NCBI RefSeq assembly: GCF_001413955.1
Contig: NZ_LCTZ01000002.1
Coordinates: 4,009,501 to 4,073,500 of the forward strand
DNA: 64,000 bases
Origin: Flagellimonas eckloniae
Lineage (GTDB): Bacteria > Bacteroidota > Bacteroidia > Flavobacteriales > Flavobacteriaceae
Direction: 5' to 3'
The position numbers and the translations under genes were made by a program. The notes beneath the pieces were generated by a model, which was not told the DNA's origin, did no database searches, and worked only from the letters and a program-made list of their open reading frames with translations. Below are positions 4,039 to 17,839 of the stretch, in pieces. Positions within the stretch are counted from its first letter, which is position 1. Each line of letters begins with the position of its first letter.

Positions 4039-4278
4039 TTCCCAGATTTACTTTGAATGTTACACTACATTGAGATGAAAGTTACTAGCAAATTTAAAGA
4101 ATCATGGTTAAAGGTTAAGTGATATATTAAGGTAGAACGGAAGTAAAGACAATGATTTTCATAAAACATTGGTTTTACGGAGCTCATTTAGGAAAATTTT
4201 GAAGTTGTGTTAAAAATGTCCCGTTCTTGCCTTCTAGCGTTTTGTTAAATTCAAATTTTATTATGACCAAAAACAATG

Positions 4279-4320
4279 AAACCTTGCAAATCTTAGATTT
4301 TACAAGGTTTTTTATTTGTT
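4279..4320. terminator. Strong hairpin, probable original terminator of tRNA-Arg
   Basis: Inverted repeat with an outer 8-bp stem (AAACCTTG / CAAGGTTT at 4279-4286 and 4303-4310), an inner AAATCT/AGATTT stem, and T-rich flanks on both sides. No gene ends here on either strand today. It lies 15 bp outside the left copy of the tRNA-Arg repeat, in the position expected for the terminator of the tRNA before the element inserted. Confidence 0.55.
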
Positions 4321-4334
4321 TGGAGTTTCCTCCC

Positions 4335-4381
4335 AGTGACCTCGACAGGATTCAAACCTGTAACCTTCTGAGCCGTAATCA
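4335..4381. repeat. attL: 47-bp partial copy of the tRNA-Arg 3' part
   Basis: These 47 bp are identical to 11597-11643, the segment of the intact tRNA-Arg(ACG) gene running from the anticodon stem through the variable region and T arm to the 3' end. Identity stops at both ends exactly (c versus a at 4334/11596; a versus g at 4382/11644). No 5' tRNA half is present here, so this is a duplicated attachment site and not a tRNA gene. It marks the left end of the integrated element. Confidence 0.93.
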
Positions 4382-4488
4382 AAATATAACGTTATTCTTC
4401 TTTTGGTTGAATTGTAGTGAAACCTTGTAAAACCCTATCATCAAAAGTTTTTGAGTTAATATCTTTTGGTATCTTTTTATATATTTTG

Positions 4489-4518
4489 TGGGCAAATCTG
4501 GGTAAATTGTGGGCAAAT
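4489..4518 (+). repeat. Three phased TGGGCAAAT repeats, candidate integrase arm sites (left)
   Basis: Direct repeats TGGGCAAAT (4489-4497), TGGGTAAAT (4499-4507) and TGGGCAAAT (4510-4518) are spaced 10 and 11 bp apart, about one helical turn, just upstream of the integrase start. The same word recurs in the same orientation near the right end of the element. This is the layout expected for arm-type binding sites of a tyrosine integrase, and such sites could also autoregulate int. Confidence 0.6.
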
Positions 4519-4529
4519 GTCAAATCACA

Positions 4530-5780
4530 ATGGATTATAAGATTTCAATTGTCCTGGATAAGCGCAGACAACTTAACAATTACAAATACCCAATCAAGGT
4601 TCGGATTTATTCAAACCTATTAAAGAAGGCGAAAAGGATTGGCACCAATCTTACCATGACTGAAAACCAATTTATCAATGCATGGGGTGTTTCTCCTGAC
4701 AAAGTAAAGAGTGAGTATAAAGCCAGCTATAGAATCCTTAGCGAGCTTTATAAACGAGCGGAAGCTGCTGCGGACTCCTTGGACTACTTCGACTTTGATA
4801 AGTTCAAGACAAAGCTTCTAAGGAAGGCATCCGATAAAACCAATGCTGCGTACCATTTTAACAAAACAATCAAGGAATTTGAATCTAAGGGTAGGATTGG
4901 AGCTGCATCTAGTTATAGATCTTCAATGATATCATTGCTCAAGTATGACAAAGAAAAGAATAGTGGTTCCGGTGATTCATTATCGTTTCATCAAATAACT
5001 CCTACATGGTTGGAGGATTATGAGTCTTATATGATTGATGATATGGGTAGAAGTATAACCACAGTTGCCATCTATACCAGAACACTAAGAGTAATTTTTA
5101 ATAATGCTATCCGTGCTAACGATTTAGAACCCAAGTACTATCCATTTGGTAAAGGTAAGTTCGAAATACCTGAAGAAAAAACCGTAAAAAAAACACTGAC
5201 CGGAAAACAAATAAAAGAGTTCTATCAGGCAAAATTGAATCCTTTAGAAGAAAAGGCAAGGGATTATTGGTTTTTCAGCTATGTTAGTCAGGGAATGAAC
5301 TTTAAGGATATTGCAATTCTGAAGTTTGAGAATATTCAAGATAGTAAGCTTGTCTATTACCGAGCAAAGACTAAAACAAAAAGAAGAACCAATATTAAGA
5401 AAATAGAAGTTCCGTTAAATCGGGAATCTCAAAGGATTTTAGAGTGCTATGGTACCAACTATCGAGAAGATGGATATGTCTTCCCGATTCTTCAAGATAA
5501 TGATACTCCAGAAGCTATTTTTCGGAAGGTCAACAACTTTATCCGGGCCACCAATCAACAGCTTAAGCGTATAGCTAAAAAGCTTGATTTTCCGAGCGGT
5601 TTTAGCACTTATTGGGCTAGACACTCGTTTGCAACTAATATGGTTAACAATGGGGCTAGTATTGAGTTTGTAAGTGAGGCTTTGAATCATAGTGATATAT
5701 CCGTTACCCAAAACTATTTAGATGGGTTTGAAGATGAAACTAAAAAGGATTTAATGGACAAACTATTAAACTTTGATTGA
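4530..5780 (+). CDS. int: Tyrosine-type site-specific integrase
   Basis: Bacteroidota-type tyrosine recombinase that would excise and integrate the surrounding element at tRNA-Arg. The ATG at 4530 gives 416 residues; an in-frame GTG at 4509 is also possible. Numbered from that GTG, an N-terminal arm-binding region (about 1-90) and SAM-like core-binding domain (about 110-205) precede the catalytic domain. Visible catalytic residues are R371 in WARHS, H394 in LNHSD and the nucleophile Y403 in QNYL. The HxxR histidine is replaced by Y (TYWARH). The usual first arginine after the GM motif is not obvious (QGMNFKDIA), as in other Bacteroidota integrases such as IntDOT. It is followed with a 1-bp overlap by the next gene. 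Confidence 0.93.
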   Translation: MDYKISIVLDKRRQLNNYKYPIKVRIYSNLLKKAKRIGTNLTMTENQFINAWGVSPDKVKSEYKASYRILSELYKRAEAAADSLDYFDFDKFKTKLLRKASDKTNAAYHFNKTIKEFESKGRIGAASSYRSSMISLLKYDKEKNSGSGDSLSFHQITPTWLEDYESYMIDDMGRSITTVAIYTRTLRVIFNNAIRANDLEPKYYPFGKGKFEIPEEKTVKKTLTGKQIKEFYQAKLNPLEEKARDYWFFSYVSQGMNFKDIAILKFENIQDSKLVYYRAKTKTKRRTNIKKIEVPLNRESQRILECYGTNYREDGYVFPILQDNDTPEAIFRKVNNFIRATNQQLKRIAKKLDFPSGFSTYWARHSFATNMVNNGASIEFVSEALNHSDISVTQNYLDGFEDETKKDLMDKLLNFD

Positions 5781-6451
5781 TGGATTCAACACGATTTAGT
5801 CACCTTCAGTTCATTGGATTAACCGCTAAAAATGCCGAAGACTATTATAAGCGGAAGTATAGGGAATGGGCAATACAAGTAGCAGATCGTATTTATCAAA
5901 ATGGGGAGTTATTAAACCCTAAAAGGACAAAGCTTTTTAAAGAAGTTGGGGGTGCTTTGTTTATGGGGCCAGCCCAAGTTGAATTGAAAAGCGATAATGT
6001 TGAGGTAAAGGAATTGGACTTTATTGAAATCGAAATCAGCCGAGTACAATCTGTCAAAGTTTCAAAAAAGTATAGTGTAAGGAAATTAAAGTATGAACAG
6101 TTTTTAGAACAAAAAAGGAATCAACTATCTCAAATTTTCGACTTGCCAGCTATCGAAATTGCTTTGATTTGCTCCATTGAACAAATTAGAGTTCACAAAG
6201 CTGTACCGCAAAATGAAGAAAAGAATTCTGAAGCTATCAGAGTGAGTAGCAAGTTTGGAAACATTGCACTTTCAACTCTTTATAGAGAATACCGTAATGT
6301 TTACCCAGAAGAACGTATTTATACCAAGTCTTTAATGAGGGTGCATACCCCCGAGATATTAAAAACCCATTTAGAAAACGTCTTGGAATATCTAAGTGAA
6401 CAAGGCAAGAAAAGAGCATCCCAATATTTATCAGATTTGAAGGTTCTTTAG
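5780..6451 (+). CDS. Unknown protein translationally coupled to the integrase
   Basis: A 223-residue protein with no motif I recognise. Its ATG shares one base with the integrase stop codon (TGATG), so the two are translationally coupled. It is charged and rich in lysine and glutamate, has no signal peptide or membrane segment, and contains a likely helical region around residues 95-130 and a basic C-terminus. The position directly behind int suggests a role in recombination, excision control or maintenance of the element, but nothing in the sequence proves it. The ORF is uninterrupted and has codon use like the integrase, so it is very probably a real gene. Confidence 0.75.
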   Translation: MDSTRFSHLQFIGLTAKNAEDYYKRKYREWAIQVADRIYQNGELLNPKRTKLFKEVGGALFMGPAQVELKSDNVEVKELDFIEIEISRVQSVKVSKKYSVRKLKYEQFLEQKRNQLSQIFDLPAIEIALICSIEQIRVHKAVPQNEEKNSEAIRVSSKFGNIALSTLYREYRNVYPEERIYTKSLMRVHTPEILKTHLENVLEYLSEQGKKRASQYLSDLKVL

Positions 6452-6518
6452 AAAGGTTACAAAAAGTTACTCCATAACCACTCCAAGACATACACATATT
6501 TGCTAAAAAATAGTAGAT

Positions 6519-6845
6519 ATGGATACTCCCACACTTGAACAAACACCAAAAATGTTACAGAGCCTAATCAATAGATTTGAAGGCTTTGAAAACAAACTAT
6601 CCAAATTTATTGCTCCAAATCATAAGCCTATTGAAATCCCAATAGGAATTGCTGAAGCTTCAAAGTTTTTAGGCCGTTCCAATCAAACTATTTACAAAGA
6701 TGTCCAATCTGGCAATATTCCCTATTACAAGAAAGGCGGGAAGCTCTATTTCCTGAAATCAGAATTGTTGGAGTGGGTGAAGTCTGGGAAGATGAAAACC
6801 AGCCTGGATTTATCCAATGACTTGGATAACGCATTAAGTAGATAA
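6519..6845 (+). CDS. Helix-turn-helix (excisionase/MerR-like) DNA-binding protein
   Basis: A 108-residue protein. Residues about 47-90 match the HTH_17 excisionase-type winged helix: IAEASKFLGRSNQTIYKDV, then IPYYKKGGKLYFLKSELLEWV, the classic sequence of helix, recognition helix and wing. The first 45 residues form a likely helical extension. Proteins of this kind act as recombination directionality factors or as small repressors in Bacteroidota elements. It lies 67 bp after the preceding gene, in the same direction as the integrase, and is closed by a strong terminator 5 bp after the stop. I infer that it controls excision of this island, either as the directionality factor or as regulator of int. 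Confidence 0.85.
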   Translation: MDTPTLEQTPKMLQSLINRFEGFENKLSKFIAPNHKPIEIPIGIAEASKFLGRSNQTIYKDVQSGNIPYYKKGGKLYFLKSELLEWVKSGKMKTSLDLSNDLDNALSR

Positions 6846-6850
6846 GAATA

Positions 6851-6890
6851 AAAAACCCTCCAACGGCCTGATTCGCCAGCGAGGGTTTTT
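6851..6890 (+). terminator. Rho-independent terminator after the int operon
   Basis: A perfect stem AAAAACCCTC / GAGGGTTTTT (6851-6860 and 6881-6890) with a 20-base loop and a run of T lies right after the HTH gene. It separates the integration module from the rest of the element. Confidence 0.85.
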
Positions 6891-7270
6891 AATAACGGTA
6901 ACTGCATGATAAAGTTAGTAATAAATCATATAGGGTAGATACTCTCAATTGGCATTATTGCCATGCAGGGAGTGATCTTTGACAGTGGTAACACTTCCCT
7001 AAGACATAAAAACAAAAAACAGAACGAAGCTATTCCAAATAGAAATGAGGCGAGAAGCAATTTTCTTGGAGTAGGGTAGATAAGAAAGGGTTAATCCGAG
7101 CAATGTCCAACCCCCGACAACTCGGTCTAAAGCGCAAAATACCTCTACGGAGTTTAAATAAAACCCACTTAATGGCGATTAGGTTCTTTTCTGCATTCCT
7201 TGGTTTCCTAGTATAAGTATTATGCGTAGGAAAGGGGGGTATGAGTACAAGCAAATAGAAAACCAAAACA
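6891..7270. other. Non-coding stretch with a 30-bp palindrome
   Basis: About 380 bp without a convincing gene between the int-module terminator and the five-gene operon. It contains an imperfect 30-bp palindrome at 7204-7233 (TTTCCTA / TAGGAAA arms, with an inner GTATAA / TTATGC stem) and a separate 7-bp inverted pair CTGCATG / CATGCAG further left. These could be an operator, a leader structure or an origin or packaging-like site. A minus-strand ORF here (7030-7332) runs into the next gene and has no family character. Confidence 0.5.
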
Positions 7271-7555
7271 ATGAAAAAAACAGAAAGTAAAAGACCGCTG
7301 ACCGAAGCACTTTTGAAGTTGATAAAGAGCAAAGGCCAATTGAAGATAGATGCTTCAGATGTTGTTAAGATTCATGATGATGGCAGCGTAACCATTAAAA
7401 TGGGCAATGACGAAATTTTAGCAATGCGTCTTTTGGAATTTACAAACAGTAAAGACCCTAAACAGGCAAAGGAAGCTGCTGAATTGGTTGCTTCCTATGT
7501 TCTGACCTATCCAAATAGAAAAGTTAAAGTAACATCAAGTAACAATGCCATTTGA
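7271..7555 (+). CDS. Small unknown protein, first gene of a five-gene island operon
   Basis: A 94-residue soluble protein. The N-terminal half is basic (KKTESKRPLTEALLKLIKSKGQ) and the middle carries a beta-like stretch (VVKIHDDGSVTIKMGNDEILAMRLLE) followed by helices with a DPKQAKEAAELVASYV segment. No family is recognised. It heads a compact plus-strand operon; the next gene overlaps its 3' end by 11 bp. The 30-bp palindrome about 38 bp upstream is a candidate regulatory site. The tight gene packing and small sizes are phage- or satellite-like, but the function is unknown. Confidence 0.7.
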   Translation: MKKTESKRPLTEALLKLIKSKGQLKIDASDVVKIHDDGSVTIKMGNDEILAMRLLEFTNSKDPKQAKEAAELVASYVLTYPNRKVKVTSSNNAI

Positions 7556-7892
7556 TAGTAAAACCGCTTCAGAAGCAGGGGCAAAATCTTCAAGGAAAGG
7601 AAGCCCAAATAAGACCACGGCATCAATACGTAGTAGAATTCAAAAGCTGGTTGATGCTGAATATGAAGCTGTATTGAGCGACTTAAAAGAGCTCTCTCCC
7701 AAGGACCGGGTGAATGCCTTCATTTCGATGTTGGAGTTTGTATTGCCCAAGCTGAATAGGAGCGAGATAGAGGACGTTTCGTTTGATGTACAAGATTTTC
7801 TTAGCCTGAGCAAAGAAGAGAGGTTACAACGGATTGCAGCCCTCGAAAAGAAGCAGATGAACAAAGAACTTAAAAAGTACTGCAATGGATGA
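7545..7892 (+). CDS. Small unknown protein with KGSPNKTT-type N-terminus
   Basis: A 115-residue protein starting inside the previous gene (11-bp overlap). Its N-terminus has a glycine/lysine motif SSRKGSPNKTTASIRSRIQ that resembles the start of DUF5681-like or small-terminase-like phage proteins, where such a segment is a basic tail before helical DNA-binding or oligomerising regions. The rest is mostly helical and charged, with ELSPKDRVNAFISMLEFVLPKLNR resembling a short helical pair. This is a suggestive resemblance and not an assignment. Its stop overlaps the next gene by 8 bp, implying translational coupling. Confidence 0.68.
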   Translation: MPFDSKTASEAGAKSSRKGSPNKTTASIRSRIQKLVDAEYEAVLSDLKELSPKDRVNAFISMLEFVLPKLNRSEIEDVSFDVQDFLSLSKEERLQRIAALEKKQMNKELKKYCNG

Positions 7893-8199
7893 TGAACAAA
7901 AACTTGAATTGATGAAAAGCTTGGTAGATGCACCGGAGCGTCCTGGGTACTTGCCAACGCCAAGCGTGTATGCGGATGACCCCTATGTTGAGGTGCCAAT
8001 CCAGGTCACAAAGTATGTGGAAGCATTGGAGGGCAAGATTGAACTGGAAGCCGATGGACGTATGAGAATTGATCACTACCTGAACCTATTGAAACAATAC
8101 AGTCTGGACCATCTGATGATATCAAAACCAACAGTATTCCAGACCTATTCAGAGGAACAAATTGAGGCAGTCCAAGACGGTATAAACGATAGTCATTAA
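7885..8199 (+). CDS. Small acidic unknown protein of the island operon
   Basis: A 104-residue acidic protein, overlapping the previous stop by 8 bp. The N-terminal third is proline- and aspartate-rich (DAPERPGYLPTPSVYADDPYV) and the remainder looks helical. No signal peptide, membrane segment or motif is recognised. It is the third gene of the five-gene unit. Because it is so tightly packed between two coupled genes, it is probably translated, but I cannot suggest a function. Confidence 0.62.
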   Translation: MDDEQKLELMKSLVDAPERPGYLPTPSVYADDPYVEVPIQVTKYVEALEGKIELEADGRMRIDHYLNLLKQYSLDHLMISKPTVFQTYSEEQIEAVQDGINDSH

Positions 8200-8215
8200 T
8201 AATTAAATCAAAACA

Positions 8216-8521
8216 ATGAAAGCAACTAAAAAGCATGCCGCTAGGCGATTATGGAAACCGAGGGCCGAACAAACGTTTCAGGATATCCTTGGACAAGAAT
8301 TGGTGTTCCCGGACTTGATAGCCGGGGAAGATCCCGCTGTGGGCGATACTGTCTATTTGGACGGCCAATTTGCAACAGGCACTTTCCTCATGCCAGGGGC
8401 CGAAACCATTATAGCAGAGGATGGGGAGGTAATCGAGGTGTTGGAGCCTACCGAAGAAACAGTTGGTTACGCCAAAAGAGTTATGAACAAAAGAAAGAAC
8501 AACAAAAAACGAAAATTATGA
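8216..8521 (+). CDS. Small unknown protein with DGxxxxGTFxMPGAETIxAEDGEVxEV motif
   Basis: A 101-residue protein with a basic N-terminus (KATKKHAARRLWKPR), a central beta-rich segment around residues 43-78 (GDTVYLDGQF followed by GTFLMPGAETIIAEDGEVIEVLEP) and a very basic tail (KRKNNKKRKL). The central phrase, short strands ending in DG-G-V-EV, resembles small carbohydrate- or capsid-decorating tails found at the ends of some phage proteins, but this is only a visual resemblance. Its stop overlaps the next start in ATGA, so the two genes are coupled. Confidence 0.6.
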   Translation: MKATKKHAARRLWKPRAEQTFQDILGQELVFPDLIAGEDPAVGDTVYLDGQFATGTFLMPGAETIIAEDGEVIEVLEPTEETVGYAKRVMNKRKNNKKRKL

Positions 8522-9126
8522 GCGCATCAGCAGAACTCAAACGTGAAATTTTGTGGGTAAACCATGATGGTATTGAAAAGACTTTAAGCCAATATAGTGC
8601 ATGGGCAGAACAAGCGAAATATGCTTTGGATCAAGCACAAAAGCTGCTCCCAGAACCTCTAAGTATTGAAGAAAGGGAGTTATTGCTTCATCAAGGTTGG
8701 AGCGCATTAGAAGGGCTTATTCGCACCGCTTACGGATTTCCAAAGGCAACGGTTGAATTTGTACTTTCAAGTCAAGGGCTGGATGGTAGTGTTGCAAAAG
8801 CGGCTTTTGACCTGGTACCTGGACGGCATTCGGCAGTTGGATTCGCTATCATCGATGGGGATGTACAAGTAAGTCCTGAAACGGTTAAAAAAGTAAAAGA
8901 CCGTAACCATCACTATGTGAAGAATGATATGCAATCCAATGCCCTCAATATGGCAAAGGACTTGTGCAAAACCCTGAACGCTGGTTTCGAGAACGGAGTT
9001 ATCAACATGGACGACCGAACTCGTTTGGTAAATGCGTTTTCAAAGTATTTAGAACTCACATCCGCAAGGAAGGAAGACCAGGTATTCGTTCCGGCGGTCA
9101 AGAGGATTGCTCAATTAAGAGCATAG
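8518..9126 (+). CDS. Unknown protein, last gene of the island operon
   Basis: A 202-residue soluble protein. The start chosen is the ATG at 8518, which overlaps the previous stop by 4 bp; the frame is open further upstream only as a shadow of the preceding gene. It is helical in the first half (LSQYSAWAEQAKYALDQAQKLL) and has a mixed central part with VPGRHSAVGFAIIDGDVQVS. I recognise no catalytic motif or domain. It closes the five-gene unit and is followed by a terminator 34 bp downstream. It is the largest product of the operon and therefore the best starting point for structure prediction. Confidence 0.7.
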   Translation: MSASAELKREILWVNHDGIEKTLSQYSAWAEQAKYALDQAQKLLPEPLSIEERELLLHQGWSALEGLIRTAYGFPKATVEFVLSSQGLDGSVAKAAFDLVPGRHSAVGFAIIDGDVQVSPETVKKVKDRNHHYVKNDMQSNALNMAKDLCKTLNAGFENGVINMDDRTRLVNAFSKYLELTSARKEDQVFVPAVKRIAQLRA

Positions 9127-9159
9127 TTAGGTTTACTTTTTAGATTTTTTGGTTTGGTG

Positions 9160-9190
9160 CCGTTCCCATTTATTTGGGAGCGGTTTCTTT
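9160..9190 (+). terminator. Terminator after the five-gene island operon
   Basis: Stem CCGTTCCCA / TGGGAGCGG (9160-9168 and 9175-9183, one G-T pair) with a short loop, followed by TTTCTTT. It sits just after the gene ending at 9126 and closes the operon. Confidence 0.75.
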
Positions 9191-9357
9191 AGTTTTACAA
9201 CATGAAATTTCCACAAGAAAAATTTGACGGCTATTTCTTTAGTTGCTAAACCTACTTTACTGTTCCTGAATGGCACTTTTAATATACTTAATGAATTTCT
9301 TGGGTTGATTGAACTATAAATTTCATTAGGTCTTCATTTCATTTTCTATTAATTTAC

Positions 9358-9652
9358 ATGTCCTCTAATTTCTACATGTATTACAACAATTGCATAAGTC
9401 GAGAGAAGGAATACCTTCAGAAATGGACTGAAGTTGATACCATATTAGGAAAAATTCCAGATGATTTGAAATTGACATATTTCGCTGTTAGTGCGTTTAG
9501 CCATCCACTTGCGAACAATCATCCAGGAGGTCCCTAATACCCTTGTAGCCAATAGGTCAGAGATAATAGATCCACTTCACTCTGAAGGGATTGGAATAGA
9601 TTACAAGAAAAAAACAAAAAAGGAAATTATGGTCTTTTATGTGGAAATTTGA
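9358..9652 (+). pseudogene. Frameshifted small ORF (or +1 recoded gene)
   Basis: An ATG at 9358 opens a 59-codon frame (MSSNFYMYYNNC...) that stops at TAA 9535-9537 directly after a GGT CCC codon pair. Read one base forward from the CCC, the sequence continues through NTLVANRSEIIDPLHSEGIGIDYK and a lysine-rich stretch to TGA at 9650-9652, giving about 98 residues in all. The two parts look like one protein. A CCC-T at a stop codon is a slippery context for +1 shifting, so it may be a broken gene, an assembly error or recoding. No family is recognised. The end overlaps the convergent membrane gene by about 26 bp. Confidence 0.45.
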
Positions 9653-9845
9653 ATGTAATATATTTTCTTATAATCAAAAGGGCGATAATAACAAAAACAG
9701 GATATCTCAGTGGAATCGAATTTGCAATTAACATATGATTAACCACTCCTATTTGGCCTAAAGTAAATTCCATTAGAATTAGTAACACGGAAAATACAAT
9801 TGCGAAAGACCCTGTAACCGACATTATATTAAGTAGCCTATTCAC
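9627..9845 (-). CDS. Small two-TM membrane protein of the island cargo
   Basis: A 72-residue protein (GTG start at 9845; an ATG seven codons later is also possible) with two membrane segments, about residues 8-28 (SVTGSFAIVFSVLLILMEF) and 48-62 (YPVFVIIALLIIRK), and a basic tail. It follows the PUA-like/TM gene by only 4 bp on the minus strand, so the two are almost certainly one transcript. No family is recognised. A short membrane protein next to a putative nucleotide- or modified-base-sensing protein would fit an effector or anchor role in a small two-gene system, but this is inference. Confidence 0.6.
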   Translation of the reverse strand: MNRLLNIMSVTGSFAIVFSVLLILMEFTLGQIGVVNHMLIANSIPLRYPVFVIIALLIIRKYITFKFPHKRP

Positions 9846-9849
9846 ATCA

Positions 9850-10845
9850 TTAATCCTTATCTAGTTCTTTGAGAACATCTATTAGTTCCGTTGGTTCTTT
9901 TATTTTCAGAGACTTCATATGTTTTTTCAACAACTTCTTTTTCGTCTGAATCTTACTGTTGGACTTTAAAAATTGACGTATTCTTTCAATAATGCCATCA
10001 GTTTGCACGTTTAAATTTACTTCCTCACTAATCTTTAAATCAAAATTTCCCCCGGCTAGACAAACAAAAATTATTCCTACAATTAAAATGCCAGAAATAG
10101 CATTTCCAGCCAATTCGATAAACCCAGGTGATTGTATTGCTAATTTTACGTCAAAGTCATTTGAATCTAAATCAAGCTCTTCTTCTTTGCAAAATTCATC
10201 AAAAACATCTAAAATTAGCCCTCCCATTTCAAACACACTTCTAGCCTTAACATCTTCTTCGGATTCTACGTTAAGAACCATGTGAGCTTCATCTTCTTTG
10301 ATAAAGAATGAGTTGATGATTTTATCAATGTAGGAATCATAAATATTCGCAGTGGTTATAGTATGATGTGAAAACATTAGTTTATATAGATTGGGATCAA
10401 GGGTATCCCTAGGGACGGTCTTTAGATATCTAATTTTTTTACGTTTGATATATGGACAATCGTAACTATCATTCAAATCATTGTAAGCGGCAGTTTGTGT
10501 AACTTCAACGAATGCAATTTCTTCGGAGTTTTCACTTGGAATTAGAACGATGTCATTTTTTTTAACTTCATATGCAAACCTCAATAGCTGTTTAGCAGTG
10601 TGTCCAGGTCTTTTCTCCTCGTCTTTATATTTATCCATAATGTTGAACTTCAAAATATTAACACCAGTATCATCTTTTGTGTTACCTTTTTGAATGTCCT
10701 TTAGGGAAATTTTGTTATAGCCAATCGCAATAAAGCCGCCCCTTAAAAAGGAGTCATAATATTTGCCACCATCTGCTCTAACTAACCAATAATTTCGATC
10801 ATCTTTAACCTTAGGTAGTTTGTTTAGTATTTCCTCAATTGTCAT
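9850..10845 (-). CDS. PUA/EVE-like N-terminal domain protein with a membrane segment
   Basis: A 331-residue protein. Residues about 18-45 (NYWLVRADGGKYYDSFLRGGFIAIGYN, read as separate strands) and NDIVLIPSE at 97-105 with IAFVEV at 110-115 resemble the PUA-like sensor fold seen at the N-terminus of Mrr-type and related restriction proteins. The middle (about 120-240) is unassigned. A hydrophobic segment at about 247-265 looks membrane-spanning, and a basic helical tail follows (KTKKKLLKKHMK near 300-311). It forms an operon with the 2-TM gene downstream. The combination of a PUA-like sensor and a membrane segment in an island cargo position suggests a defence function, but no nuclease motif is visible. 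The family assignment is tentative. Confidence 0.65.
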   Translation of the reverse strand: MTIEEILNKLPKVKDDRNYWLVRADGGKYYDSFLRGGFIAIGYNKISLKDIQKGNTKDDTGVNILKFNIMDKYKDEEKRPGHTAKQLLRFAYEVKKNDIVLIPSENSEEIAFVEVTQTAAYNDLNDSYDCPYIKRKKIRYLKTVPRDTLDPNLYKLMFSHHTITTANIYDSYIDKIINSFFIKEDEAHMVLNVESEEDVKARSVFEMGGLILDVFDEFCKEEELDLDSNDFDVKLAIQSPGFIELAGNAISGILIVGIIFVCLAGGNFDLKISEEVNLNVQTDGIIERIRQFLKSNSKIQTKKKLLKKHMKSLKIKEPTELIDVLKELDKD

Positions 10846-10940
10846 ATAATATTTTTGGTTTGGTTAGACGAAAAATATAAAACTTTATCTGTAAACAATG
10901 GATTTTAAAAAATAAAAGAAAGTATTTGATTAGATAAAAA

Positions 10941-10969
10941 TAAAAACCATCGTTTGACTATGGTTTTTG
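10941..10969 (-). terminator. Terminator-like hairpin
   Basis: Stem AAAAACCAT / ATGGTTTTT (10942-10950 and 10960-10968) with T-rich flanks. On the minus strand it lies downstream of the gene ending at 11114 and upstream of the gene starting at 10845, so it would separate the two cargo transcripts. Confidence 0.55.
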
Positions 10970-11113
10970 TTGTTAAAGAATTATATAAATTGCTTTTTAT
11001 TTCTAAAACTAATGACAAATTATCAATAATCTTAGATTTGTTCTCTAAAACTGAACTCAATAAAGAATGGTTATTAAGCCCGTATTACTTTCGAACATGT
11101 TTCCATTATCAAT

Positions 11114-11509
11114 TTAACTAAGGATTGCAATTAAAATCACTACAACAATTCCTATAACTGAAGCAATGGCTCCGACTTTAGTCCAGTTTATTGAACTTTT
11201 GGCACTTTTAATACCTTGACCATAGTTGCCAAAATTGTCACCCATATGTAAATTTCCTGAATTAACAATATTGGTTTGCCCAGCATGACTTATTACTGAG
11301 TGATTGTATTCAGCGTCAGCCAAGTTTTGACCTTTTTCAGCCATTTTGTAGCGTTTGAACTTACTAGACTTTTCTAATTTAAGAAAGCCACGAATATGGG
11401 CGTATTCCAACTTTTCCAAAAGTTCAGAATCGGAATCTTTTGTAATTGTATGGTTCTTGTTTTCTGCAATATATCTGACTGCATCGTCAATCATGTGGTC
11501 CTTACTCAT
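11114..11509 (-). CDS. Winged-helix-like protein with Asn/Gly-rich linker and C-terminal TM anchor
   Basis: A 131-residue protein in three parts. Residues 1-65 look like a small winged helix (DDAVRYIAENKNH, LLEKLEYAHIRGFLKL, KFKRYKMAEKGQNLA). Residues 76-98 are rich in Asn and Gly with the alternation TNIVNSGNLHMGDNFGNYGQ, typical of short beta-roll-like linkers. Residues 112-130 are one hydrophobic segment ending at the C-terminus, so the protein is probably tail-anchored in the inner membrane with its head in the cytoplasm. I do not recognise a named family. It lies at the right end of the integrated element, as a separate transcript from the PUA-like gene, and could be a membrane effector or regulator. 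Confidence 0.62.
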   Translation of the reverse strand: MSKDHMIDDAVRYIAENKNHTITKDSDSELLEKLEYAHIRGFLKLEKSSKFKRYKMAEKGQNLADAEYNHSVISHAGQTNIVNSGNLHMGDNFGNYGQGIKSAKSSINWTKVGAIASVIGIVVVILIAILS

Positions 11510-11531
11510 AAATCGAAATTTAATTATAAAA

Positions 11532-11551
11532 TGGGCAAGAACTGGGCAAAT
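11532..11551 (+). repeat. Two phased TGGGCAAAT-like repeats, candidate arm sites (right)
   Basis: TGGGCAAGA at 11532-11540 and TGGGCAAAT at 11543-11551, spaced 11 bp, match the words repeated upstream of the integrase at the other end and have the same orientation. They abut a hairpin and lie 46 bp inside attR. This fits a second cluster of integrase arm-type sites. Confidence 0.55.
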
Positions 11552-11595
11552 AATAAAGGGGCGTATTAAGAAAACTCTGTTAGCCCCTTTATTTT
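11552..11595 (-). terminator. Island-borne terminator behind tRNA-Arg
   Basis: A perfect 11-bp inverted repeat (AATAAAGGGGC at 11552-11562, GCCCCTTTATT at 11583-11593) lies directly downstream of the tRNA-Arg gene on the minus strand, inside the element. It can replace the tRNA terminator left behind near 4279-4320 when the element inserted. Confidence 0.6.
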
Positions 11596-11596
11596 A

Positions 11597-11643
11597 AGTG
11601 ACCTCGACAGGATTCAAACCTGTAACCTTCTGAGCCGTAATCA
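11597..11643. repeat. attR: 47-bp repeat inside the intact tRNA-Arg
   Basis: Identical to 4335-4381. This copy forms the 3' part of the functional tRNA-Arg gene, so the element restored the tRNA on integration, as is usual for tRNA-targeting integrases. Confidence 0.93.
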
Positions 11644-11672
11644 GATGCGCTATTCAGTTGCGCCACGAGGCC
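11599..11672 (-). tRNA. tRNA-Arg (anticodon ACG)
   Basis: A 74-nt cloverleaf reads on the minus strand. The acceptor stem GGCCTCG pairs with CGAGGTC (one G-T), followed by discriminator A; no CCA is encoded. The D arm contains GCGCAACTGAATAGCGC. The anticodon stem-loop is TCTGA-TTACGGC-TCAGA with anticodon ACG (wobble A likely read as inosine). The T arm is ACAGG-TTTGAATC-CTGT. Its 3' two thirds are the integration target of the element to its left. A -7-like TATATTTG lies about 15 bp upstream. Confidence 0.96.
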
Positions 11673-12484: not shown

Positions 12485-14263
12485 TTAGCTATTCTCTTTG
12501 ATCCAATTAGTTATTTTATCCTCTAACAATGCAAGCGGAACACATCCGGTTTCCAAAATTTGATTATGGAATTGACGAATATCGAAATTATCTCCTAAGG
12601 CATTTTTTGCTTTTTCACGTAGTTCAATAATTTTCAATTGACCAATTTTATAGGATAATGCCTGTCCAGGGTTGGCCATATAACGTTCAATTTCAGAAGT
12701 GATGCTAGCTTCGGATTCAGCCTCATTGTCCAAAGAATATTGAATGGCTTCTTCACGTGTCCATCCTTTGGAATGCAAGCCGGTATCCACAACCAAACGA
12801 ACCGCTCTGTGCATTTCTGCCCCAAGCATACCAAAAAGTTGATAAGGATCTGTATAAAGACCCAATTCTGTTCCCAAGGATTCACTATAAAGTGCCCATC
12901 CTTCGCCATAACCACTATACCAAAGTGTTTTCCTGAATTTTGGAAGCACATCGCTTTCTTGCGTTAAGGATATTTGATAGTGATGCCCGGGAATAGCCTC
13001 ATGTAAGAACAAGGACTCATCTGAGTACACATTGTATTTGGTAACCTCGGGAATAGGCGTGTAAAAAATACCTGGACGGGTACCATCCAATGACCCTGGA
13101 TTGTATTCGGCACTAGCCGAATTTTCCCTGAATGCTTCTGTACGGCGAACTTCAAAAGGAGTTTTTGGTTTTACATCGAACAGTTTTTCTATCTGCGGTT
13201 TCATGCGGTCATGAATAGCATTGAAATTATTGATTACTTGTTGAGGGTCCGTGTACGGCATTAATTCTTTGTTGCTTCGAACAAAATCAAAGAAAGCTTT
13301 TAAATCTCCCTCAAAACCAACCTGATTTTTAATTTCTTCCATTTTAGACCGTATTCTTGCAACCTCACTTAGACCCAATTTATGAATCTCTGAAGCGGTC
13401 ATATTGGTGGTGGTATATTTTTTTATTTGATGTGCATAATAAGCATCACCATTTGGTTCTCCTTGTATACCGCTAGATTCCCTACCTACATTTGAATACT
13501 CATGCTTCATGAAATCATACAGTTTTTGATACGCAGGAATTACTTTATTGCTCACCATGTTTTGATATGCTTCCGTTAAAGCAGTTTTTTCATCCTCTGT
13601 AAAACCTTCAGGCAATTTTTTTATTGGTTGATAAAAGAGGTGCTTGTCCAAATCCTTTGTAGTAAGGGATTGTAGTTGGGGTAGTACTTTTTTGATCAAT
13701 GATTTTGGGAGTACATGACCTTTGGTCATTCCTTCTCTCATTTTTTCTTTAGCACTGGACATCCATTTTAGATACCCATCTACCCTTTTCATCCATTTTT
13801 CATAATCTTCAACAGTTGCAAACGGTTGTGCACTGGAACCACTGGCTAGTTGCCCCATAAATAGGTTGGTGGACCACATTTGGTCAATTGGAGTGAGATC
13901 TGCGTTAAAGTTGAACTCATTTAAGTTGATATCGCATTCCCAGTCCAAAATAGCCTTGCTCATTTGCTCACTTTCTGTAAGGTTTTCATCTGAAAATGCG
14001 GCAAGTTTATTTTTATAGCTTTCAAAGTGAGTTTTTGCTTTTTCTTCAAACTCATCTGAAAGGGCGTTTGTAAATACATCATCATAACGATGATCACCAG
14101 CCAATGTGGCGGTTATTGGATTTAGTTTTAACCCATCCTCATAATAGCTGTCCAATAAAGTGCTAAAATTGGCGCTGATGGTAGCAGATTCTTCTTTTTT
14201 GGGTTTCTCTTTGCAGGATTGAAAAACAACAAGGGCAAGAATTAAAATTGTTATTTTTTTCAT
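12485..14263 (-). CDS. DUF885 family lipoprotein (putative metallo-hydrolase)
   Basis: A 592-residue exported protein. The N-terminus is a lipoprotein signal (KKITILILALVVFQSC, cysteine about residue 17), so it is probably anchored in the periplasm-facing or outer membrane. The family signature HEAIPGHHYQ (HExxPGHH) in the C-terminal part, followed by GEGWALYSE, is the zinc-peptidase-like active site of DUF885 proteins. The ATG at 14263 is preferred over the TTG just before it. It stands alone on the minus strand between apt and a divergent secreted protein. The substrate is unknown; peptidase activity is inferred from the family only. Confidence 0.88.
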   Translation of the reverse strand: MKKITILILALVVFQSCKEKPKKEESATISANFSTLLDSYYEDGLKLNPITATLAGDHRYDDVFTNALSDEFEEKAKTHFESYKNKLAAFSDENLTESEQMSKAILDWECDINLNEFNFNADLTPIDQMWSTNLFMGQLASGSSAQPFATVEDYEKWMKRVDGYLKWMSSAKEKMREGMTKGHVLPKSLIKKVLPQLQSLTTKDLDKHLFYQPIKKLPEGFTEDEKTALTEAYQNMVSNKVIPAYQKLYDFMKHEYSNVGRESSGIQGEPNGDAYYAHQIKKYTTTNMTASEIHKLGLSEVARIRSKMEEIKNQVGFEGDLKAFFDFVRSNKELMPYTDPQQVINNFNAIHDRMKPQIEKLFDVKPKTPFEVRRTEAFRENSASAEYNPGSLDGTRPGIFYTPIPEVTKYNVYSDESLFLHEAIPGHHYQISLTQESDVLPKFRKTLWYSGYGEGWALYSESLGTELGLYTDPYQLFGMLGAEMHRAVRLVVDTGLHSKGWTREEAIQYSLDNEAESEASITSEIERYMANPGQALSYKIGQLKIIELREKAKNALGDNFDIRQFHNQILETGCVPLALLEDKITNWIKENS

Positions 14264-14558
14264 CAATTTAAGTATGATTTGTTAGAAAAATGTAAAATAG
14301 GTATATCAAACAAAATATGAATGTATCAAATTGCTAAAATTTTCTAAAAAAGAGTCCAGGCAGAACGGGAACTCAACCATCAATGTATTCTTATAAAAGT
14401 TCAAGTGATTTTCAAAGAATAGTACTAAAAAAGGCCAGTATAAAAAATTTCACTCAATAAAACTTCGGGTACACTCAGTCAAAGGTCAAACAGGCTCAAT
14501 AGACATTTTTTGGGTGGATTACCTTGTCTAGCTTCAACAAAAATTAAAATTTTTAAAG

Positions 14559-15860
14559 ATGAAGACAAAACTGAAATTTATATGGGTGCCTGCGCTGACA
14601 TTGGTTGGGATAGTGTTTTACGTTGCGCTAATGGCTTCTACGCCAAAAAGAACCTTACAGCCAGAGAAGGGTTGTGTATTTATGACCGTAATGGGTGAAC
14701 AATCATCCGAAGGTTTTGATCGATACAAGTCTGATCAGAACCTACAACTAGCAGTACGCGATGGACTTCAATGGTTATCCAAGGCGCAATTGCCCAACGG
14801 AGGCTATGGAGCTGGTGGCCATTCGGCCCAACACGTTAGAGACCCGCATGCTGTAAAGGCTGATCCAGCTACTACGGCTATGGTAGGTATGGCATTGTTA
14901 AGGAGCGGTACAACGCTAAAAAAAGGGATTCACGCCGAAAATCTTAAAAATGCGTTGGATTATCTACTGAACACTATAGAGAATGCAAATGATGACAGTC
15001 CTTACATCACTCAGGTTAGAAATACCCAGATTCAGACAAAACTAGGCGAAAATATTGATGCTGTACTTGCGGCACAGTTTCTTTCTAATGTTCTTGACAG
15101 AAATCTATCCGGTATGGATAGAAAAAGGGTTGTTCGTTGTTTGGGTATTTGTATTGCGCATATTCAAAATGGGACGGATGCGCATGGAAAACAAAGAGGC
15201 GCAGGTTGGGCCGGTGTTTTGCAGAGCGGAATGGCCAATAGTGCCTTGGAAGCGGCCCAAGCAGCAGGAGCTTCAGTGGATGAGGTGGTTATAGAAAGGT
15301 CAAGAAAATATCAAAAAGATAATTATAATGAGGAAGACGGTTCGGTTAAAACGGATGACGGAGCTGGAATTATGTTGTATGCTGTTAGTGGTAGCGTAAG
15401 AGCCAGTGCAAAAGAGGCAAGGAAGGCTAAAGCTGACATTAACAAAGCCAAAGCAGAAGGAAAGATAGCAGCTGATGCAGAAGTAAATGCGGAAACCCTA
15501 GAAGAAATAGGATATGCACAAGGTGAGGCTCAAAAATATGGTACTGCATACAAAATATACGAATCTGCTAAGGAAACTGCCCAAAGAGATGAGGTTTTGG
15601 ATGGCTTTGGGAATAATGGAGGAGAAGAGTTTTTAAGCTACCTGCAAACTGGTGAATCTTTGTTGGTTAGTAAGGATGATGATTGGAAAAAATGGTACGA
15701 TGGTATGAGTGGACGTATCCTAAAGATTCAAAATAAAGATGGCAGCTGGAATGGACACCATTGCATTACAAGCCCTGTTTTTTGTACTGCTACGAGCTTA
15801 CTTCTATTGACAGTGGAAGAAGACATTGCCTTTTTGCAAAAAATTGGGGAGGAAAAATGA
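14559..15860 (+). CDS. Secreted terpene-cyclase/prenyltransferase-fold protein
   Basis: A 433-residue protein with an N-terminal signal anchor (residues 8-26). It carries alpha-barrel repeats of the squalene-cyclase/prenyltransferase type: GLQWLSKAQLPNGGYGAGG at about 69-87, and near the C-terminus ILKIQNKDGSWNGHH at 387-401 followed by TATSLLLLTVE at 410-420. Residues about 280-345 are an Ala/Lys/Glu-rich helical insertion (ASAKEARKAKADINKAKAEG) not expected in cyclases. The DxDD acid motif of squalene-hopene cyclase is not seen, and the predicted extracytoplasmic location argues against terpene synthesis. It may bind protein or a cell-surface ligand. It stands alone, with no obvious operon partner. 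Confidence 0.7.
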   Translation: MKTKLKFIWVPALTLVGIVFYVALMASTPKRTLQPEKGCVFMTVMGEQSSEGFDRYKSDQNLQLAVRDGLQWLSKAQLPNGGYGAGGHSAQHVRDPHAVKADPATTAMVGMALLRSGTTLKKGIHAENLKNALDYLLNTIENANDDSPYITQVRNTQIQTKLGENIDAVLAAQFLSNVLDRNLSGMDRKRVVRCLGICIAHIQNGTDAHGKQRGAGWAGVLQSGMANSALEAAQAAGASVDEVVIERSRKYQKDNYNEEDGSVKTDDGAGIMLYAVSGSVRASAKEARKAKADINKAKAEGKIAADAEVNAETLEEIGYAQGEAQKYGTAYKIYESAKETAQRDEVLDGFGNNGGEEFLSYLQTGESLLVSKDDDWKKWYDGMSGRILKIQNKDGSWNGHHCITSPVFCTATSLLLLTVEEDIAFLQKIGEEK

Positions 15861-16327
15861 AAAGTGGTTTTGTGACCAGTGTAACAATTCCTAATTGTAT
15901 AATCAGTATTCCAAATAAAGTAATCATAGCGATTGGTTTTAAAGGTTAGACAAAAATGAACTCGATGAGCTGTATAAGCAACATCACCATAAACTTGACA
16001 ATTGTAATCATTGTGTTGATTGTTTTTAAGGGTTGATAAAACTGTTGAGAACCGGTTACGTTTTTTAATATAAAATGAGAATTATCATGTTTCCAAATTT
16101 TTGGAGCAAAATCAATACAATTGCATACAAGAGTGTAGGTTAAAAAATGAAATAGAATTTAGAATTTATGTGACTTCCTTTAATAATATTTAAAAATGAA
16201 ATATAAAATTCAATTTTAAGTAATAAAATGTAATAATTGAAGGGGTGTTTTTAACCTAATTTTGAAAACCAAGGGGCTTTTCGTTTAAAAAACTACCGTT
16301 TTTAGCGATTTCATTATTTTTCAAAAT
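15861..16327. other. Intergenic stretch without a convincing gene
   Basis: About 470 AT-rich bases between convergent genes. Only tiny hydrophobic reading frames occur (for example 15946-16011 on the minus strand), with no family character. I see no RNA gene. The stretch ends with the shared terminator at 16328-16360. Confidence 0.5.
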
Positions 16328-16360
16328 AAAAAACCGACTCCTAAGAAGAGTCGGTTTTTT
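16328..16360. terminator. Bidirectional terminator (M56 operon and convergent gene)
   Basis: A perfect stem AAAAACCGACTC / GAGTCGGTTTTT (16329-16340 and 16348-16359) with a 7-base loop and A/T tracts on both sides, 25 bp after the M56 gene stop. Confidence 0.85.
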
Positions 16361-16384
16361 AATTAAAATACATATCTATTTGGA

Positions 16385-17839
16385 CTATTTTTTCTTTTTG
16401 GTTACAATTTCAACTACTCCATTTTTTGCTTTTTCACCATATTTTTCAATAGCCTTTTCGCCTTTCAGAACACTCATGGTTTCAATTTGGTCAGCATCTA
16501 GTTTTTCAAATTGTTTTTTTGAGAATTCCTTTTCATCAATTATATAGAGGGGGTCTTCATCTCCATCATGATGTGTAAAGAAAAAACCATTACCTTTTTT
16601 ACTCTTTTTCACCTTGATTTTTTTGGAATGTGTTTCATCGTCATAAACATATATTGAATTTGGGCTGTGTCTAAATGAAGTTTTATTGCCTTGTCCAATT
16701 GCTATTTCATTGGTGGTAAGGTCGACAATAACATACATGGGTTTAATTGCTGAATTGGAATTGGAGCTATTTAAAGTGGCCGAGTTTTTTGGACCTTCAA
16801 CACTAATGGAGAAAGAAGTGATTTCGTCTTTGTCATTTCTCTGAAGCGTGTATGAAAAGTCGATTTTATCTTCCGCCAGATCTGACTTTATTTTGACAAG
16901 CTCATCATCAGAAGTATCCTTGTCGATAATAAGTTCGATTTTGGTATTTTCAGATGTAGGGCCGTCCGCATTTTCAAATGTATAAACCGTTTTTGTATTG
17001 AACCCAACAAGAAAAAGAGCCAATAAGGGTAAAATAACCAAACTTTTTAGGGTTTTGCGTTTTTTTGAGGGAGTCTGATTGATCATAACTATTCTTTTTT
17101 TGATTAATGAATTAAAAAATGGATTTACTATGGATAAATTCTGTTTGGATATACTTTGTGACAACAGAATATACTGGTATTGCTTCCTATTCTTTTTTAA
17201 GGAACTATTTTTGGTATCTGCCAAAAACTCTAGATTTTGCTTCAGAGCATTTTTGTAAAGCCAAGCAAAAGGGTTGAACCATTGGAATACTGAAATGAGC
17301 TCCACGCAAAGTATATCGACCGTATGTTTTTGAGTCGCATGCACCAACTCATGCGCAAGTATGGATTCCAATTCTTTTTCAGAATGTTTTTTTTGGTTAT
17401 AGATTACATACTTAAAAAAGGAGAAAGGTTGAACATCCATGGAGCTTTCAACATAAGTCACATTTTCCGTGATTTTCTTTTTGCCCAACTTTATAAAGGT
17501 AAGTACTGACCGAATTTGTACTATAAAGCGAGCTAAGAATATGGCAACACCTAAAAGATAGGTTACAATTAAAAAGTTTCGCAAAGTAGAAAAGGATTGG
17601 CTATCTACAATGACATCATTTCCCATGGTTGAATTTGTCCCAGCCATCATTTCGGCAGACAGGGTAATTGTAGTGGTGAGATGTATGAATGGAAGGATTG
17701 CTGAGGTAACCAATCCAATGACCAAAAACCATCTGTTGGCAGTAAACAAGGTTTCTTTTCTTAAAAATAAGTAGTAACAGCCAAGGAAAAGGGTTAATAC
17801 TCCCGCAGATTTTAACAGATAAATTAAAAAAGCTTCCAT
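16385..17839 (-). CDS. BlaR1-type M56 metallopeptidase with plug-like C-terminus
   Basis: A 484-residue inner-membrane M56 peptidase, the membrane partner of the BlaI repressor encoded directly upstream (no gap between the genes). Four hydrophobic segments lie near residues 5-25, 38-58, 88-106 and 268-285. The zinc site HELVH is at 163-167, with ENLEFLADTK-like text further on. Signal perception would trigger cleavage of BlaI. The C-terminal extracytoplasmic region has no penicillin-binding domain; it ends with IETMSVLKGEKAIEKYGEKAKNGVVEIVT, a copy of the short plug motif of TonB-dependent receptors that is common in Bacteroidota M56 proteins. The signal it senses is therefore not necessarily a beta-lactam. 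Confidence 0.88.
   Translation of the reverse strand: MEAFLIYLLKSAGVLTLFLGCYYLFLRKETLFTANRWFLVIGLVTSAILPFIHLTTTITLSAEMMAGTNSTMGNDVIVDSQSFSTLRNFLIVTYLLGVAIFLARFIVQIRSVLTFIKLGKKKITENVTYVESSMDVQPFSFFKYVIYNQKKHSEKELESILAHELVHATQKHTVDILCVELISVFQWFNPFAWLYKNALKQNLEFLADTKNSSLKKNRKQYQYILLSQSISKQNLSIVNPFFNSLIKKRIVMINQTPSKKRKTLKSLVILPLLALFLVGFNTKTVYTFENADGPTSENTKIELIIDKDTSDDELVKIKSDLAEDKIDFSYTLQRNDKDEITSFSISVEGPKNSATLNSSNSNSAIKPMYVIVDLTTNEIAIGQGNKTSFRHSPNSIYVYDDETHSKKIKVKKSKKGNGFFFTHHDGDEDPLYIIDEKEFSKKQFEKLDADQIETMSVLKGEKAIEKYGEKAKNGVVEIVTKKKK

Follow-up and report, generated by a model that had tools for sequence, protein, structure and literature searches.

A candidate phage satellite in a tRNA-Arg gene of Flagellimonas eckloniae with a predicted stand-alone domain of phage head-maturation proteases

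Introduction

The majority of known phage satellites belong to Gram-positive cocci, to enterobacteria or to Vibrio. Phage-inducible chromosomal islands (PICIs) and Staphylococcus aureus pathogenicity islands (SaPIs) possess a pri/rep replication module and control of the Stl or AlpA type, capsid-forming PICIs (cf-PICIs) possess a capsid-forming gene set of their own, and tycheposons occur in Prochlorococcus. Here we analyzed a 64-kb stretch of the Flagellimonas eckloniae genome (the window), in which a small integrase-carrying element is located in the gene for tRNA-Arg(ACG). We consider the element a likely phage satellite of the genus Flagellimonas/Allomuricauda, which belongs to the marine Flavobacteriia. 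The described systems close to it include the phage-inducible chromosomal minimalist islands (PICMIs) of Vibrionaceae (PMC10803314), and SaPI1, whose protein CpmB resembles part of the helper scaffold and competes for the capsid protein (PMC5644958).

An integrative element in tRNA-Arg(ACG)

The element is bracketed by a perfect 47-bp repeat, the copies of which are 7,262 bp apart; an exact pair of 47-mers would be expected by chance about 2e-18 times in 64 kb. The repeat covers tRNA-Arg(ACG) from its anticodon arm to its 3' end, together with one extra base; this tRNA is the only one called in the window by ARAGORN, in agreement with Rfam. When the 46-bp core of the repeat was searched in the own genome at ≤3 mismatches, two sites were found, both representing element ends. 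An earlier note, made from the letters of this DNA, had described the element as bracketed by a duplicated tRNA 3' part, and this is borne out exactly. The gene inventory given there, an integrase, an ORF (open reading frame) coupled to it by a 1-nt overlap, an excisionase-like helix-turn-helix (HTH) protein and a five-gene operon, was likewise recovered with the ORF list, Pfam and TIGRFAM. The element has an integrase and attachment (att) sites of its own, as expected of a phage satellite.

The position of the integrase at the end away from the tRNA had been regarded as unusual, an assessment that did not hold. We found the integrase distal to the intact tRNA or tmRNA gene in 7/7 elements for which both ends were sought (the window element, L011, L012, L013, L081, L082 and L083; L014, L090 and L091 were left out). 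Since all seven share it, this layout is a common trait of the element group.

Among the 10 window ORFs scanned, no relaxase or conjugation family was matched in Pfam, and no capsid or portal protein in Pfam and PHROGs; a full virion gene set is not present.

Hairpins are located at 4279-4310 and at approximately 11558-11596, the first detected by computation and the rest by eye. At both junctions the sequence on the 3' side of the tRNA apparently supplies a hairpin, much as if the tRNA terminator were being replaced. Hairpins that are similar but differ in sequence adjoin the same tRNA in other genomes (by eye).

Gene d resembles a domain of phage head-maturation proteases

Two profiles were used for gene d of the operon: one of three proteins (A5), taken from elements seen in genomic context only, and one of nine sequences (A7), including five proteins without a seen context (P0026, P0028-P0031). 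Across 71 genomes of the genus, the three-protein profile matched in five, namely the four elements of the operon type and a head protease of G047 (E 9e-15; G and L numbers denote genomes and loci). The latter is a 398-aa protein with a ClpP domain, directly followed downstream by a virion-protein-like ORF (phrog_1623, 6e-6). Across 346 genomes of the order, the nine-sequence profile matched in four, the window and proteases of G071, G291 and G405. All four proteases match both the ClpP domain and PHROG head maturation proteases. In G071, G291 and G405 an ORF of 352-364 aa lies directly 3' of the protease gene, which belongs to a PHROG of no assigned function in two of the three cases and is without match in the third. 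Outside the operon-type elements the d profiles match head proteases exclusively (4 genomes), and within the elements d is a stand-alone gene in all four seen in context.

Direct scoring with d gave 32-54 bits for 5/5 proteases, gp01 of Cellulophaga phage phi46:1 included, in comparison to 10.6 bits for the best of 10,000 shuffles; four of these five proteases came from the d profiles, so this control measures strength and not independence. In the proteases, the d-like part follows the protease domain, with its start between residues 194 and 226, and precedes a coiled-coil-like tail (by eye). We regard this region as a putative scaffold. The predicted structure of gene d (pLDDT, predicted local distance difference test, 84) shows a small beta domain and a C-terminal helix. 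Using this model, Foldseek matched four viral proteins with E ≤0.001, with an unnamed 351-aa protein at rank 1 and an XkdF protein at rank 4; ClpP- and XkdF-type proteins recur just below E 0.001, among many unnamed ones. Judged by profiles and predicted fold, gene d is a stand-alone form of the domain that lies behind ClpP in phage head-maturation proteases. The claim that no structural phage gene is present was thus not quite right.

The operon is shared by elements at different RNA genes

Genes a to e (7271-9126) overlap their neighbors by 4-11 nt, with one exception, a gap of 16 nt, and all five ORFs are intact. The whole operon is also present in two elements located at tRNA-Arg(TCT). In Allomuricauda amphidinii (G015) the element measures 7.2 kb and ends in an interrupted 17+13-bp repeat, in Flagellimonas allohymeniacidonis (G045) it measures 9.2 kb and is bounded by a perfect 46-bp repeat (species names from the contigs). 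An element at tRNA-Phe in G004, with a 14-bp repeat, keeps d and e and also encodes a protein of 128 aa, part of which can be aligned with a. The G004 integrase is 58-63% identical to those of the elements in G048 and G025 and of a second element in G045; to the window integrase it shows 25% identity over 188 columns and thus represents another clade. Because d and e are paired here with an integrase of another clade, the operon moves between integrase backbones. Gene b had matches in 8 of 99 genomes searched, the own one included, and gene c in 6 protein clusters among 5.8 billion sequences. A gene b relative also follows an integrase, a coupled gene, an HTH_17 gene and a REP_ORF2-G2P replication protein (PF23343, 2e-8) at 6638-9866 of L014 (G022), with type I restriction-like genes (by eye) behind it.

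In comparison to G015 the dN/dS values of a-d range from 0.08 to 0.21, which indicates purifying selection on these genes. The ratio was computable for a-d against G015 and for c against G045; elsewhere, including gene e, synonymous sites were saturated. This bears on whether the element could be a decayed prophage, i.e. an ancestral phage of which a single fragment of a head domain and some genes are left, as the phage-like gene d and the phage-type integrase might suggest. A compact operon that is under purifying selection in a-d, that occurs at different RNA genes with different integrases, that has intact ORFs in the window and a stand-alone d in all four elements seen in context argues against decay, and we regard this explanation as very improbable.

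Gene e marks a group of sister elements

The profile of gene e retrieved 17 proteins from 5.8 billion sequences, the one of the window included. In the genus it matched 7 loci in 6/71 genomes, and in the 346 genomes of the order the window and two loci in other genera (G149, G371). The predicted structure is a confident fold (pLDDT 92), for which no significant structural match was found. By sequence, the relatives of e in the sister elements are distant.

Several sister elements carry recognizable phage genes. The 15.7-kb element of G025 is located between an integrase at one end and a tmRNA at the other, with a 14-bp repeat, and encodes a tape-measure protein (PF20155, 3e-30), e, a 121-aa protein and a terminase large subunit (PF04466, 5e-12); a 127-aa ORF in the position expected for a small terminase has no PHROG match. 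Gene e and a terminase large subunit also occur in the second element of G045 (14.5 kb, tRNA-Ser, 18-bp repeat). In the G048 element (12.2 kb, tmRNA, 16-bp repeat) e adjoins a gene for a 731-aa protein that is 36% identical over 99% to the virion protein gp97 of Cellulophaga phage phi19:1, which is encoded directly behind the tape measure; the gp97 family bears the PHROG label "head and packaging", yet its neighbor in phi19:1 is the tape-measure gene. In G371, e is accompanied by a weak tape-measure match (3e-8).

These genes also bear on the nature of the mobility. The earlier note had left a choice between a minimal island and a satellite of a phage or of an integrative and conjugative element (ICE). 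The phage satellite and the integration into tRNA-Arg are supported, whereas an ICE satellite is not, no relaxase having been matched in the 10 window ORFs scanned with Pfam. An integrative and mobilizable element (IME) or ICE-dependent island, mobilized by conjugation via an oriT and carrying phage-derived genes incidentally, would equally combine an integrase and an excisionase in a tRNA gene, and an element with nothing but an oriT is compatible with the searches made. With no relaxase or conjugation match in the 10 ORFs and with virion and terminase genes in the sister elements, this is the least probable of the explanations considered.

We tentatively propose, as a possibility somewhat short of even chances, that these elements form a mosaic satellite group in marine Flavobacteriia with the integrase, the integrase-coupled gene, the excisionase-like HTH protein and e as a core, the members differing in the phage parts they borrowed. 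With the same reserve, the borrowed parts (head protease/scaffold domain, tape measure, tail-region protein, terminase) might hit the helper at differing assembly steps. As a similarly cautious suggestion, d could be a capsid redirector cut from a protease-scaffold protein of the helper.

Proposed mode of action

As a phage satellite the element could act as follows. Upon infection by a helper phage the integrase and the excisionase-like HTH protein would excise the element, and the operon a-e would be expressed. The product of d, resembling part of the helper protease-scaffold protein, would contact the helper capsid protein or the protease-scaffold and enter head assembly or compete in it, so that head assembly would be redirected to the use of the satellite and/or phage heads would be spoiled. 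Gene b, and perhaps a, might steer packaging. The DNA of the element would then travel in particles made by the helper and reintegrate in tRNA-Arg.

Helper, induction, circular form and particle are predicted features of this reading. A number of observations weigh against it. Any packaging role of a, b or c is putative: the link of b to phages is kinship with a phage protein annotated as DUF5681, and c has no match in Pfam or PHROGs. Because a protein named as a putative tail protein is among the fold matches of d as well (Foldseek rank 28, E 0.075), d could represent a domain of general occurrence in phages instead of a scaffold. The d profile found no second copy of the domain in the own genome, which also lacks a match to Terminase_3, the one terminase family searched. 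No replication, rep or primase gene (DUF3987 and DUF5906 included) was matched in the 10 window ORFs with Pfam and PHROGs. Four scans of IMG/VR viral contigs (genes a, c, d and e) confirmed no relative, nor did tblastn with gene e against 50,697 phage records find one. In the sister elements, the tape-measure candidate of G371 has a second match, to a coiled-coil SMC model, with a score well under the cut-off of that model, and in G149 e stands with defence-like genes, with no phage structural genes recognized by eye. The att repeats are short in several elements (14 bp in L081 and L082), and a 285-aa gene present between the HTH gene and the operon in relatives has left no trace in the window element.

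The integration site in relatives

The earlier note had suggested looking for an empty site in relatives. We compared 29 loci of relatives; another 41 genomes in which tRNA/apt was matched stand outside this set. In seven of the 29 loci (G033, G009, G021, G005, G052, G036, G047) the flank 4248-4334, whole or in part, continues without a break into the tRNA (84-87% identical in alignments of 161-193 columns, to which the tRNA side contributes 104). To this extent an empty site exists. In 5/7 of these loci, however, an integrase ORF is located 180-230 bp left of the junction, i.e. proximal to the tRNA, unlike in the group of the window element. For this reason the stretch 4150-4334 is probably the end of another element left in place rather than pristine chromosome, and the empty site therefore lacks this satellite only. 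Altogether, an integrase ORF was found within 1.5 kb of the tRNA in 6/27 loci tested, with L030 (no exact tRNA core) and L039 (119 bases of flank) left out of the 29; the integrase model was built from seven sequences including that of L021, whose match is given by construction.

In G020, the closest relative found, homology extends as far as 4149, and the tRNA follows after 4.4 kb of unrelated sequence. This insert has no second att copy, no integrase was found in the 2.5 kb next to the tRNA, and genes b, d and e have no match in G020. tRNA-Arg(ACG) thus appears to be a reused integration site.

The G020 insert (L050, reverse complement of 12606-17009) contains NYN-like, sigma-factor-like and desaturase-like ORFs (by eye). 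In G050 and G042 the 87-bp flank core was noticed a second time, at distances of 5.6 kb (2834943 vs 2840590) and 14.5 kb (3141671 vs 3156207), respectively, from the copy at the tRNA, as if it marked far ends of other insertions.

Cargo and further features

The features of the element are compiled in Table 1. The integrase ORF has an alternative GTG start at 4509. The slot behind the integrase holds a gene in all 9 elements compared; the 223-aa protein of the window matched none of the eight others by blastp. In the 331-aa cargo protein, residues 18-187 (the N-terminal half) match PDC-S02 models (PADLOC 2e-23), a match also seen in the G149 element. The protein further matches phrog_10226 (function not assigned, 2e-67) and has kin in 16 phage records. 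Ten proteins of relatives picked as cargo were searched with PADLOC: 4/10 match at 0.001, two of them, which are protease-like, covering the model in part only, and 6/10 have no match. Cargo varies among the elements and by sequence resembles phage-defence candidates. At 9358-9652, between gene e and the cargo, there are two short ORFs that overlap each other and have the appearance of a disrupted cargo gene.

The defence-like cargo raises the question of whether the operon is an anti-phage module, in which d would act on head assembly as a decoy or in a dominant-negative way, and the element a rarely moving defence island. That no replication gene was recognized in the window element would suit such an island, and interference of satellites with tail assembly is known (PMC11364771). 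A terminase large subunit in two sister elements suits packaging better than decoy defence, and the integrase and att repeats kept in all seven elements with ends sought likewise speak for mobility. We consider this explanation unlikely; it is compatible with a phage satellite and does not exclude it.

Table 1. Features of the element and its borders in the window
Feature	Position	Strand	Evidence or remarks
Left flank, probably end (scar) of a different integrative element using the same tRNA	4150..4334	.	
att repeat copy, integrase end (tRNA 3' fragment)	4335..4381	.	
Two direct copies of TGGGCAAAT, candidate integrase arm-type sites	4489..4518	+	Repeat family D1, putative function; 8-mer elsewhere in window too
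Tyrosine-recombinase integrase, 416 aa	4530..5780	+	PF00589 1e-15, PF13102 4e-15, phrog_1 2e-32
Integrase-overlapping gene, 223 aa, no assigned function	5780..6451	+	1-nt overlap with integrase
Excisionase/AlpA-like HTH_17 protein	6519..6845	+	PF12728 6e-12; TIGR01764 32.6 bits (cut-off 28.8)
Mostly non-coding stretch with terminator-like hairpin	6842..6924	.	83% over 84 columns to G004 element
Gene a, 94 aa	7271..7555	+	30% identity to part of 128-aa G004-element protein; dN/dS 0.11 vs G015
Gene b, 115 aa, RKGSPNK-type	7545..7892	+	Kin to Bacteroides-phage protein annotated DUF5681; dN/dS 0.09 vs G015
Gene c, 104 aa, no assigned function	7885..8199	+	dN/dS 0.08 vs G015, 0.14 vs G045
Gene d, 101 aa, predicted stand-alone phage head-protease-associated domain	8216..8521	+	dN/dS 0.21 vs G015
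Gene e, 202 aa, common to sister elements	8518..9126	+	Profile searches, predicted fold
Terminator-like hairpin 3' of gene e	9159..9184	+	
Hydrophobic 72-aa ORF (by eye), downstream of cargo gene	9627..9845	-	No PHROG match at 0.01
Cargo, 331 aa, candidate phage-defence protein	9850..10845	-	PDC-S02 models (PADLOC), phrog_10226
Cargo, 131 aa, hydrophobic C-terminal segment (by eye), no assigned function	11114..11509	-	
TGGGCAAG/TGGGCAAA pair at tRNA end, candidate arm-type sites	11532..11551	+	Similar to 4489..4518 pair; putative function
att repeat copy within intact tRNA gene	11597..11643	.	
tRNA-Arg(ACG), intact, target of integration	11598..11672	-	ARAGORN, Rfam

Comparison with known satellites

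The literature searched contained, among the matches listed, no description of a satellite family in Flavobacteriia or other Bacteroidota; most subscription papers were outside this search, hence it is no proof of novelty. If the element is a phage satellite, the Bacteroidota gain a satellite group with a recognizable marker, gene e, and a testable candidate for capsid redirection akin to a protease-scaffold region. The group would also join the recent finding of tape-measure genes in satellites.

Several known classes differ from the window element in their gene sets. With no primase/rep and no capsid/portal match in its 10 ORFs, it has neither the pri/rep module of PICIs and SaPIs nor the capsid set of cf-PICIs, and it also lacks the relaxase of IMEs. 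An HTH protein of the AlpA/excisionase type is present, a candidate counterpart to the control of PICIs and SaPIs with a putative regulatory role. PLE11 and the cf-PICIs have backbones different from those of the present elements. They carry a tape-measure gene of their own, as the G025 sister does and the G371 one may, and in this they are the closest functional parallel to the sister elements; they live in other hosts, and the window element itself is without such a gene (PMC12987554). Tycheposons and virion-encapsidated integrative mobile elements (VEIMEs), both named in PMC11389934, are marine satellite-type elements too.

Among the satellites of Streptococcus, Javan462, Javan339 and Javan325 share kin of the 331-aa cargo, these being three of its 16 phage records. 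Javan60, 61, 71, 76 and 79 carry a Clp-protease-like protein, whereas the window element has only the post-protease domain. Among 30 of 932 records listed, such a Clp-protease-like protein was seen in the Streptococcus satellite phages MK448561, MK448605, MK448648, MK448654 and MK448572, which represent another satellite group with a head-protease relative.

In layout the PICMIs are the nearest parallel. Like the window element they are small and marine, combine an integrase with an integrase-overlapping gene (iolg) and an AlpA-type HTH protein, and have a slot for defence genes and direct repeats at their ends (PMC10803314). The window element has the integrase and the AlpA-type HTH protein (PF00589, PF12728), the latter a family that the PICMI model accepts. 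Membership fails on the primase, which that model demands and for which the window element has no match, and on the site, the prototype being located at fis (optional in the first search model) and the window element at tRNA-Arg(ACG) (PMC10803314). A typical PICMI is also without a capsid-remodelling gene, whereas the window element has a predicted head-assembly domain. For the proposed function of d, CpmB of SaPI1 is the nearest parallel (PMC5644958). CpmB matches the C-terminal helix of the scaffold, whereas d, with a predicted fold of one small beta domain and a helix, resembles the part of the proteases that follows ClpP, so that the parallel would be a functional one: in both cases a satellite protein resembling part of a helper assembly protein.

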